From: Tribonema minus
Lineage: Eukaryota; Sar; Xanthophyceae; Tribonematales; Tribonemataceae
DNA: 64,000 nucleotides
Direction: 5' to 3'
Assembly: GCA_017506865.1 (NCBI GenBank)
Contig: JAFCMP010000157.1
Coordinates: 62,001 to 126,000, forward strand
Shown piece by piece: positions 1 through 64,000 of this stretch (position 1 is the first letter of the stretch; the number at the start of each line of letters is the position of its first letter). The notes under the pieces were generated by a model. The model saw only the letters and a program-made list of their open reading frames with translations. It was not told where the DNA came from and searched no databases. The position numbers and the translations under genes are program-made.

Positions 1-22
1 TCAACTCTGATCCTTGCCGCAG

Positions 23-3000
23 ACGTGACGGCGCGCGCTTTGTGCTCAAGGCCGTGCGGAAGGCGCGCCTGCAGGCAAACGAGACCTCCGCGGCGACCGC
101 GCAGACTGAGAGGCGCATCCTGGAGCAGGTAGCTACCCCTAACTCTCACCCTAGCCCTAACCCCAACACTAGCCTACCAAAAAAAGCAACCCTAGTGTTA
201 GGGCGAACGAGACCTCCGCAGCGACCGCACAGACGGAGAGGCGCATTCTCGAGCAGGTATTGAACCCCATACCGTCGCTATCATTTTCAGCCTGCGTCAA
301 ATATGAAACCTAACCCTAGCGTCAGGGCGAACGAGACCTCCGCGGCGACCGTGCACACGGAGAGGCGCGTTCTCGAGCAGGTCAGCCAGCAATATCTAAC
401 CCTAAACCCTGGCCCTCGTCTAACCCTGAGGCCAAGAGGCGCATTTTGGAGCAGGTAGCCAACCCTCCCTTATTTTGACCTTAGCCCTAGCCAAACCTTG
501 TACCTGGCCATAGCGTTAGGGCGGTTAGCGTTAGGGTTAGGGTTAGGGTTAGGGTCCGCGGCGACCGCACAGACAGAGAGGCGCATTCTCGAGCAGGTCA
601 GCGAGCGAACCCTAATTCTCACCCGTGACCCTAGCCCTCATCTAAGCCTAAGGCTAGCCCTAACATTAGGGCCAATGAGACCTCCGCAGCGACCGCGCAG
701 ACTGAGAGGCGCGTTCTCGAACAGGTCAGCGCGCGAACTCTACCCTTTACCCTAACCCTAACACTAGCCTACACAAAAAACGCAACCCTAGTGCTAGGGC
801 GAGCGAGACCTGCGCGGTGACCGAGCAGACTGAGAGGCGCATTCCTGGAGCAGGTAGCTAACCCTAACCCGAACTCTAAGCCTAGCCCTAACCGAATCTT
901 ATACCTAGCACTAGCGTTAGGGCGACCGCAGAGGCAGAGAGGCAATTTTTTTCAAACAACGAGCAGGTCAGCGAGCTAACCCTAGACCTATCTCTGACCC
1001 CGAATTCCAGCCTAACCCTACGAGTAACCCTAGTGTTAGGGCCAACGCGAGACCTCCGTGGCGACCGCACAGACAGAGCGGCGCATCCTGGAGCACGTCA
1101 GCGAACTTATTTCTCACCTTAAACCTAGCCCTAGCGCTAGCCTAATTTTGAAAGTAGCCCTAGCCATAGGGCCAATGAGGCTTGTGCGGCGACCGCGCAA
1201 ACCAAGAGGCGCATCTTGGAGCAGGTAGCTAACACAAACTCTCAATGTAGCCGTAGCCAAAACTTATGCCTGGCCCTACCATTCGGGCTGATGAGACCTT
1301 CGCGGCGATTGCGCAGACAGAGAGGCAGGTCAGCAAGCTGCCTCACCTGAGCCCCTAGCTCTAGCGCTAGCCTGATTCTGAAAGTAGCCCTAGCGTTAGG
1401 GCCAACGAGGCTTGTGCGGTGACCGCACAGACAGAGAGGTACATCCTGGAGCAGGTAGCTAACCCCTTGCATGTAGCCCTAGCCACACCTTGAACCGAGC
1501 CCTTGCTTAGGTTGACCTCTGTGGCCAGCGCACAGACTGAGAGGCGCATCCTGGAAGCAGGTAGCTAACGCTAACCCTCACTCTGAACTTAGCCCTAGCC
1601 AAACCTTAACCTAGCCCTGAGTAGCGCCAGGGCAAACGAGACTTCCGCGGCGACCGTGCAGACAGAGAGGCGCGTCCTGGCGCAGGTCAAAGCGCTAACC
1701 CTAACTTCAACCCTGACCATACCCTGAGCGTACCCTTATTTTTGCCCCAAGCCCTACCCCCTGCCGTGCGCGCGCACATCTCGCACCCGCTCAAAGTGGC
1801 CTTCCACGGCGCTATGCAGGACAAGTCCAACGTGTACTTCCTGCTGGCGTACTACCCCTAACCCTAAGTTTCTAACCCTTACTCCCTAACCCTGCCCCCT
1901 GCGTGCACGCGCAGATCTCGCACCCGCTCATCGTGGCGTACTGGCGCCATGCAGGACAAGTCCAACGTGTACCCTAACCTAAACCTAACCTGAACCCTAC
2001 TCCTAACCCTACCCCCAAACCCTGATCCCCCAACCCCCCCTCTACCGTGCGCGCGCAGATCTCGCATCCGCTTATAATGGCGTTCACAGCGCCATGCAGC
2101 ACAGGCCCAAAGTGTACCCTACCCTAACCCTAACTCTGACCCTAGCCCTCTAACCCTAACCCTTTAACCCCCCCTCTGCCGTGCGCGCGCAGATCTCGCA
2201 CCCGCTCATAGTGGCGTTCCACGGCGCCATGCAGGACAGGCACAAAGTGTACCCTACCCTAAACCTAACCCTAACCCTGACCCTAGCCACCTCACCCTAA
2301 CCCCCCAACCCCACCTCTTCCGTGCGCGCGCAGATTTGCACCCGCTCATCGTGGCCCTTCACGGCATCGTGCAGGACAGGCCCAATCCTAACCCACCCTA
2401 ACCCTAACCCTAATCCAACCCCATCACCCTAAATCTAACCCTAACTAACTCTCTAATCCTAACCCCCCAACCCCACCTCTACCGTGCGCGCGCAGATCTC
2501 GCACCCGCTCATAGTGGCGTTCCACGGCGCAATGCAGGACAAGTCCAACGTGTACTTTCTGCTGGCGTATTACCCGGGGGGCGACCTCGCGTACCACCTC
2601 TCAAAGCACGGCGCGCTCAAGACGAGTGCCGTGCGTTTCTTTGCGGCAGAGGTGCTGCTGGCTGTTCAGGTTAGAACAAGAACCTTCAACAACACAAAAA
2701 AAAAACTTATTGTAACCAGAATCGTATGTACTACTTTGCATGTATGAGCGGAAGCATGGAAAGCAATGCCCAAGCACGGCGCGCTCAACACGAGCGTAGT
2801 GCGCTTCTTCGCGGCCGAGGTGCTGCTGGCCGTTCAGGTGACTAACTTCACATTCTACTTCTATACTCATGAACCCTACTGTCAAGCGGTATGTATGTAC
2901 CTCCCGTACCACCTCTCCAAGCACGACGCGCTCAAGACGAGTGCGGAGCGGTTCTTCGTGCCCGAACTGCTGCTGGCTGTGCAGGTGAAGACTTTCAAAC

Positions 3001-63807: not shown

Positions 63808-63948
63808 GCCAACGATGTGCAGCTGTACTTTGTGGTCACTCCTGATGTCTTCAGTCGCTACACCAGCAGTTGGAGCACATCAGGGGTGATCTTCAACTTG
63901 AAGTTGAGGAGGAACTCGCATTCCATCCATTGCGCAGTTTGTGCTTAA
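63808..63948 (+). CDS. Possible additional C-terminal exon of the Crinkler/RHS-type gene
   Basis: After TACGTGCAG the sequence reads GANDVQLYFVVTPDVFSRYT in the phase seen at other G-split junctions here, then is open to TAA near 63948. DVQLYFVV followed by a Phe-rich helix is typical of the end of RHS/Crinkler NTPase regions. If it is real, the TGA at 63675 is bypassed by splicing from within the preceding exon, or the gene is disrupted. Confidence 0.4.
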   Translation, partial: ANDVQLYFVVTPDVFSRYTSSWSTSGVIFNLKLRRNSHSIHCAVCA

Positions 63949-64000
63949 GATCGCCTAACCATGCAACATGCACATTGTGCCACTCTGTGGCGATTCACGG

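Follow-up and report, generated by a model that had tools for sequence, protein, structure and literature searches.

How an intron comes to be filled with copies of the exons that flank it, and which of the resulting splice sites are then used, is the question raised by a stretch of 64,000 nucleotides from Tribonema minus (here, the window; bases 62001 to 126000 of contig C157 in a 158-Mb assembly of 554 contigs). Tribonema minus, a relative of the brown algae, belongs to the xanthophytes within the PX clade. In the window, introns carry degenerate copies of the adjoining exon ends along with their splice sites. Taking together the findings detailed below, we propose that these introns grow by repeated short tandem duplication, both within them and across their edges, with splicing hiding the result, and we place the probability of this reading at roughly 80%.

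Gene models and copies of exon ends in the window

Exon boundaries were placed by reading the sequence and were then verified by script. Four genes were modeled, yielding 25 introns of 453 to 2367 bp; the frame is kept at every one of their junctions, and the joined frames are open to the end. The modeled genes are as follows.

1..10557, plus strand: AGC-type protein kinase gene, in six plus three exons, with a gap intron before 8156 that lies outside the model
27-128, 2496-2669, 3712-3875, 4847-4910, 6522-6694, and 7199-7295, plus strand: kinase exons
8156-8229, 9227-9516, and 10362-10557, plus strand: kinase exons, second block
13440..17800, minus strand: minus-strand gene, with exon pieces 17800-17723, 16944-16835, 14521-14393, and 13565-13440
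25848..39059, plus strand: formamidase gene, 13 exons
59145..63677, plus strand: RHS/Crinkler-like ATPase gene, four exons, the start of the first being arbitrary

The starts of the kinase exons at 27 and 8156 are arbitrary, as are the outer limits of the two terminal exon pieces of the minus-strand gene. Kinase intron 5 is a GC-AG intron, and its donor copy also has GC. In comparisons with Pfam, the kinase matches Pkinase (5.7e-52) and the formamidase matches FmdA_AmdA (4e-166); residues 1 to 366 of the 380 in the latter protein align to a solved formamidase (PDB 2wkn), covering all 12 junctions. For the RHS-like protein, residues 1 to 268 give only AAA_16 and NACHT matches that lie below the cutoff, and the product of the minus-strand gene has no match in Pfam. 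Among the best 120 listed proteins, with only those of similar length considered, the highest identity is 73% for the formamidase and 49% for the kinase. Since no near-identical protein is found among these 120, neither gene is seen to have an intact public model, and the public models of the kinase (27-7295) and the formamidase (25848-39059) may be missing or broken; arrays of the kind described here may mislead gene finders. A search for a second copy of the kinase, using 1761 bp, recovered, apart from the query, five fragments of other kinases (75 to 80%) and no second copy. Elsewhere in the window, the minus strand of 44008-48669 is a single open frame of 1553 amino acids from stop to stop, rich in homopolymer and triplet-repeat stretches.

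For each exon, the last or first 36 nucleotides were used as a probe against the exon's own intron and assessed with 200 dinucleotide shuffles. The first-pass annotation had suggested such a count of exon-edge matches against shuffled controls, and the outcome favors its observation: a same-strand copy is present in the own intron for 24 of the 50 exon edges at a p of about 0.005 (12/25 donors and 12/25 acceptors), and on other contigs such a copy is present at 7 of 40. Antisense copies occur at 1 of the 50 edges (sense versus antisense, Fisher 5e-8). When compared with other introns, the same probes reach best scores that are mostly 11 to 14, with a maximum of 20. Significant edge copies are found in 16 of the 25 introns, 8 of which have both edges copied, and the 36-nt probe test finds none in the remaining 9. 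By gene, these introns comprise 7/7 modeled ones in the kinase, 5/12 in the formamidase, 3/3 in the minus-strand gene, and 1/3 in the RHS-like gene. At a score of at least 15 there are 59 copies, 1 to 12 per edge, of which 37 belong to the kinase (31 and 6 in its two exon blocks), 10 to the formamidase, 7 to the minus-strand gene, and 5 to the RHS-like gene. Their mean identity is 89.5% over aligned bases, a value that the score threshold favors upward, and successive copies, counted from the junction, are spaced at a median of about 128 bp (14 edges). Of the donor copies, 27 extend to the junction, where GT is present in 22 and GC in 2 more; an AG precedes the junction in 23 of 26 acceptor copies. 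No significant difference in length separates the introns that have edge copies from those that lack them, either in the window (p = 0.35) or on other contigs (p = 0.15). The copies and the related repeats are distributed as follows.

129..1700, plus strand: kinase intron 1, donor-side array of 12 copies of the exon end and donor, spaced mostly at 90 to 130 bp with telomere-like CCCTAA between copies
1760..2400, plus strand: kinase intron 1, acceptor-side array of 5 copies of the acceptor and the start of the next exon
2776..2990, plus strand: kinase intron 2, donor side, 2 copies
3166..3700, plus strand: kinase intron 2, acceptor side, 4 copies, including two in 118-bp units that share 36 identical nt with the exon
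3925..4145, plus strand: kinase intron 3, 2 donor-side copies, with a further acceptor copy near 4640
4973..6370, plus strand: kinase intron 4, 1 donor copy (4973) and 3 acceptor copies (6007, 6188, and 6329)
6820..6892, plus strand: kinase intron 5 (GC-AG), 1 donor-side copy
7351..7817, plus strand: intron after kinase exon 7199-7295, repeats of the end of that exon, outside the edge test as the next acceptor is unfixed
8373..10330, plus strand: 3' part of the kinase, donor copies at 8384 and 9663 and acceptor copies at 8676, 8797, 9024, and 10274
14070..14340, minus strand: minus-strand gene intron 3, 2 donor-side copies, with 1 acceptor copy near 13739
16570..16800, minus strand: minus-strand gene intron 2, 3 donor-side copies
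17340..17450, minus strand: minus-strand gene intron 1, acceptor-side copy of 108 of the 110 bp of the next exon
26037..26180, plus strand: formamidase intron 1, 2 donor-side copies, both without GT
31098..31604, plus strand: formamidase intron 5, 4 acceptor-side copies in 139-bp units
31917..31985, plus strand: formamidase intron 6, 1 donor-side copy
34815..35130, plus strand: formamidase intron 8, 2 acceptor-side copies
38800..38850, plus strand: formamidase intron 12, 1 acceptor-side copy
59310..60450, plus strand: RHS-like intron 1, 2 donor copies (59318 and 59419) and 3 acceptor copies (60200, 60300, and 60414)
5287-5329, 8540-8594, and 15409-15513: examples of intron stretches with telomere hexamers

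These counts modify the picture drawn in the first-pass annotation, which had reported arrays in five genes. Four of them (the kinase, the formamidase, the RHS/Crinkler-like gene, and the minus-strand gene) do have arrays; for the fifth, a sulfotransferase, a motif scan of the window gave one chance-like match and no gene. Multiple copies per edge are likewise present, in a range of 1 to 12 at a score of at least 15 and not the 1 to 13 first given. The description of dozens of decoy splice sites per gene suits the kinase, with its 37 copies, but not the other three genes, with 5 to 10 each. The pattern had also been called systematic, and it does recur in 16/25 introns of the window and 7/21 elsewhere, but 9/25 window introns lack a significant copy.

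The single significant antisense edge counts against plain tandem duplication, which makes none. This match lies in intron 1 of the minus-strand gene, where inspection by eye of 17101-17160 shows the acceptor and opening bases of the next exon in inverted form.

Extent, divergence, and order of the copies

The copies are contiguous blocks of exon and intron that run through the junction. In 58 copies ascertained from the exon, the matched fraction is 0.86 on the exon side and 0.69 on the intron side, against 0.36 for shuffled sequence; in 40 matches ascertained from the intron, it is 0.73 on the exon side (median, 0.82) and 0.81 on the intron side, the low exon-side value being a point against the duplication reading that is partly explained by the inclusion of a few telomere-like repeats with no exon part. 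Such figures are expected of a duplicated block whose source is constrained on the exon side and unconstrained on the intron side. The copies reach a median of 55 bp into the exon, and just 1 of the 59 covers at least 95% of it. This near-whole-exon copy (108/110 bp, in the minus-strand gene) has, by eye, an in-frame stop and no donor at the matching place.

At edges with at least three copies, we counted changes private to one copy apart from those common to several. The private changes are spread evenly over the codon positions (31/19/28; p = 0.23), and hence the copies look neutral. The shared changes lean toward the third position (12/12/26; p = 0.011 per site), as if each copy captured a different moment in the silent-site drift of the exon; such copies could provide a dated archive of the exon's former states. 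The difference in third-position lean between shared and private changes is not significant (p = 0.13). The raw mismatch by codon position is 7.6/5.5/18.6%, and with 36-nt probes this third-position excess goes beyond that expected from the simplest neutral model, which counts against the neutral reading. Coding selection on the copies, as suggested by the excess, was considered and set aside, being weakened by the separation of private from shared changes. A frameshifting gap is present in 23 of 66 copies with 60-nt probes and in 8 of 59 with 36-nt probes. By our own arithmetic, the retention of GT (22/27) and AG (23/26) is close to that from neutral decay at about 10% per site.

At 10 of 14 edges, the highest-scoring copy is the one closest to the junction (p = 0.013). 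The overall concordance between distance and score is not significant, with p values of 0.45 when kinase intron 1 is included and 0.07 when it is left out. In that intron, which has the largest array, copies farther from the live exon are no less similar to it, suggesting that copies there also arose from copies.

Introns on other contigs and in LHC paralogs

Twenty-one introns on other contigs were reached via Pfam matches to exons, a sample that is not random: length guided the choice of loci L048 and L049, and paralogy that of L028/L029 and L050-L052; the eight introns of these loci were inspected before testing. The edges tested comprise 21 acceptors and 19 donors, with the donors of L049 and L052 left out and the intronless L057 dropped. 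Seven of the 21 introns and 7 of the 40 edges are positive, as against 0 of 40 in antisense (p = 0.012); among the introns that were fetched blind (L054-L066 less L057), 4 of 13 are positive. All seven positives are acceptors (7/21; donors, 0/19), and this counts against the proposed reading. Donor copies are visible by eye in L004, L024, L028, and L047. Repeats, several of them ending at splice-like sites, were also seen by eye in L004, L024, L026, L027, L046, and L047, and these stand outside the counts. An apparent acceptor copy in L061, judged by eye, has a p of 0.086 and was counted as negative; L055 is significant with no copy seen by eye.

Self-comparison of 27 loci, with the window and L030-L040 excluded, identified local direct repeats in 17, some of these repeats being low-complexity or coding, and none in 10. 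Loci L030-L040 (on C90, C179, C144, C223, and C278) are ORF-dense, have kinase matches, and occur as two or three copies that are 92 to 99% identical where aligned; 10 of these 11 loci have no local repeats, and the share in the other is 3.7%. We had tried C90/C179 and C144/C223/C278 as an allelic-type comparison of introns and rejected it, since these ORF-dense, almost repeat-free contigs are uninformative on introns. Two further contig pairs, C70/C489 and C296/C490, are nearly identical. In L041, 1289-1597 and 1845-2154 are two 310-bp copies with nearly 100% identity, which are also present in the matching contig L042.

The paralogs offer a more direct view. The LHC genes on C1 (L028) and C79 (L029) are about 90% alike, in two pieces. 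The L029 intron is 660 bp long with one acceptor; that of L028 is 966 bp long and has, by eye, two extra copies of the acceptor plus exon. Following the end of the next exon in L028 are three donor copies, and L029 has none of these (also by eye). The second set has one intron common to three LHC paralogs, with an acceptor copy in L052 (p = 0.003) and none in L050 and L051. Copies present in one paralog and absent in its sisters, in two sets, indicate that the arrays arise repeatedly and separately. A new intron at an otherwise uninterrupted site was not encountered as an outcome of the arrays in these two sets; every member carries the intron, and the differences are confined to its length and content. 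As a separate observation, the L050 paralog (C511) has an extra 298-bp intron at CAG/GT, a site uninterrupted in L051 and L052, which represents an intron gain or loss.

Origin of the arrays and choice of splice sites

Tandem duplication across splice junctions is well supported: the copies are local, same-strand, contiguous, codon-even in their changes, and variable among paralogs, being absent from sister genes. The first-pass annotation had read the introns in this way, as growing by tandem duplication across junctions, hidden by splicing. Under the mechanism that we propose, repeated short tandem duplications would lengthen the introns. Some of the duplicated blocks would lie wholly within the intron, and others would span the passage from exon to intron or from intron to exon, repeating half an exon and its splice site. 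The outer exon end alone would stay joined to the body of the exon, and the inner copy would be removed with the intron. This inner copy would then decay neutrally while the live exon remained under selection, and repetition of the process would leave ladders of dead exon edges. The constant polarity of the copies and the outermost position of the true site, both of which had been pointed out earlier, fit the geometry of a duplicated block of exon end and intron start; as that geometry forces them, they add no independent support.

The outer sites are probably the ones used, judging from the reading frame, the homologs, and two annotated proteins. A protein assembled from L028 is 100% identical over 149 amino acids to the annotated Tribonema minus protein P0001, and P0001, like P0042 (L054, on C46), reads across the outer acceptors. 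Fidelity to these sites might be achieved via exon definition, a concept of splicing with which the short exons, the mostly long introns, and the half-exon copies with one site each are consistent. Having one splice site with no partner across the exon, an inner copy would probably go unrecognized. If the outer sites are indeed used faithfully, this argues for exon definition in a stramenopile. These introns could thus be seen as a natural experiment on splice-site choice, with up to 12 near-identical donors per intron, the true one being the further, outer one. They also point to a concrete route for intron lengthening without transposons, for which before-and-after pairs are available within one genome.

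Splice junctions or transcribed introns might instead be specific targets of duplication, through breaks tied to R-loops or splicing, for instance, a reading that we regard as doubtful. The fraction of 36-mers with a second copy in the same intron does peak at the junction (0.52 to 0.56), is mostly 0.2 to 0.4 inside introns, and drops to zero beyond about 110 bp into exons (1 to 7 probes per point). However, this peak needs no targeting, because similarity on the constrained exon side lasts longer and is better detected. With intron-internal 36-mers themselves mostly 20 to 40% repeated, and with only 33 of the 58 exon-ascertained copies keeping at least 72% on the intron side, the earlier notion of a process directed at exon edges is not upheld. 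A preference for introns appears in the local repeats, which make up 31.8% of 2232 intron 36-mers versus 10.5% of 2457 from unmodeled DNA, itself a mix that includes genes outside the models and low-complexity stretches (null, 6/1873); the exon 36-mers, 34.2% of 304, are repeated because their copies lie in introns. Yet the unmodeled DNA is uneven, ranging from 0 to 0.41 per 2 kb, and at 50-54 kb (0.36 to 0.41) it is as repetitive as the introns, and some introns (at 36-38 kb and in L048) are repeat-free. Local repeats are absent from 18-20, 40-44, 48-50, and 56-58 kb of the window. The telomere hexamers TTAGGG/CCCTAA, in both orientations, number 88 in introns, 7 in unmodeled DNA, and 0 in exons, and 54 control hexamers of the same composition are even (averages of 13.6 in introns and 13.4 in unmodeled DNA); this too would favor targeting, but 64 of the 88 are in kinase introns, such that the concentration rests much on one gene. 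TTAGGG repeats are also found at the first bases of several contigs, and telomere repeats dominate the matches listed in a search with the whole kinase gene. We consider it unlikely that a break-and-repair process acting in introns and rare elsewhere makes 100- to 150-bp tandem duplications over junctions along with telomere insertions, with exon definition letting the introns grow; if this were true, introns would be built from within, and the copies would be dated fossils of exons and near-perfect decoy sites.

Functional copies, acting as alternative exon ends or as selected splice-site decoys, might be suspected from the intact splice dinucleotides and high identity of many of them and from the raw mismatches at third positions. 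This is very improbable, as the private changes are codon-even, 23 of 66 copies (60-nt probes) are frameshifted, splice dinucleotides have disappeared at roughly the neutral rate, and some paralogs lack copies. The idea of duplicated alternative exons fares no better, with only 1 of 59 copies being near-whole and no whole exon with both sites and coding constraint having been found. An assembly artifact that expanded the repeats could be imagined for kinase intron 2, where the units at 3462-3765 are 98% alike; the mean identity of 89.5%, the differing states between copies, and the recurrence of the pattern on other contigs make it extremely unlikely. Finally, repetitive introns in several genes might bring to mind mobile introns or introner-like elements. 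These we find scarcely conceivable, as each copy matches its own neighboring exon and 36-mers drawn at random from the 25 introns of the window find a match in another of these introns in 26 of 3000 trials. Growth by tandem duplication thus remains our preferred reading.

Tandem duplication across a splice junction is itself known; what appears to be new in Tribonema is how dense the duplications are, that decoy donors form ladders with as many as 12 rungs, and that the half exons end up hidden. Among the matches listed, whose titles and abstract openings came from few subscription journals, there were no such arrays apart from a single tandem duplication in potato. As the available portion of that report describes it, this duplication also crosses a splice junction, copying an acceptor and exon start, and gave rise in one event to both a novel intron and a novel exon segment that are seen in RNA reads; in Tribonema, in contrast, the half exon would be removed inside a longer intron, with up to 12 repeats and in 16/25 and 7/21 introns. 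The model of tandem genomic duplication at AGGT (PMC3443670; also Rogers 1989 and Hellsten 2011, as cited in the excerpted text of PMC4974935) likewise has tandem duplication interacting with splice sites. As excerpted, it differs in that an exonic AGGT segment is duplicated to make a new intron, whereas existing Tribonema introns lengthen and the exon is unchanged. In the Lipomyces stwintrons (PMC7138796, in the part available), a donor element is duplicated within an intron, as in Tribonema, but the duplications are of 4 to 7 nt and yield nested introns, whereas the Tribonema blocks measure about 100 bp and bear coding sequence. The introner elements of Amoebophrya (as given in the accessible text of PMC7789003) similarly provide repeat-bearing introns in a protist; they form families spread among genes with direct repeats of 3 to 5 nt at their boundaries, unlike the Tribonema copies, which match the local exon only.
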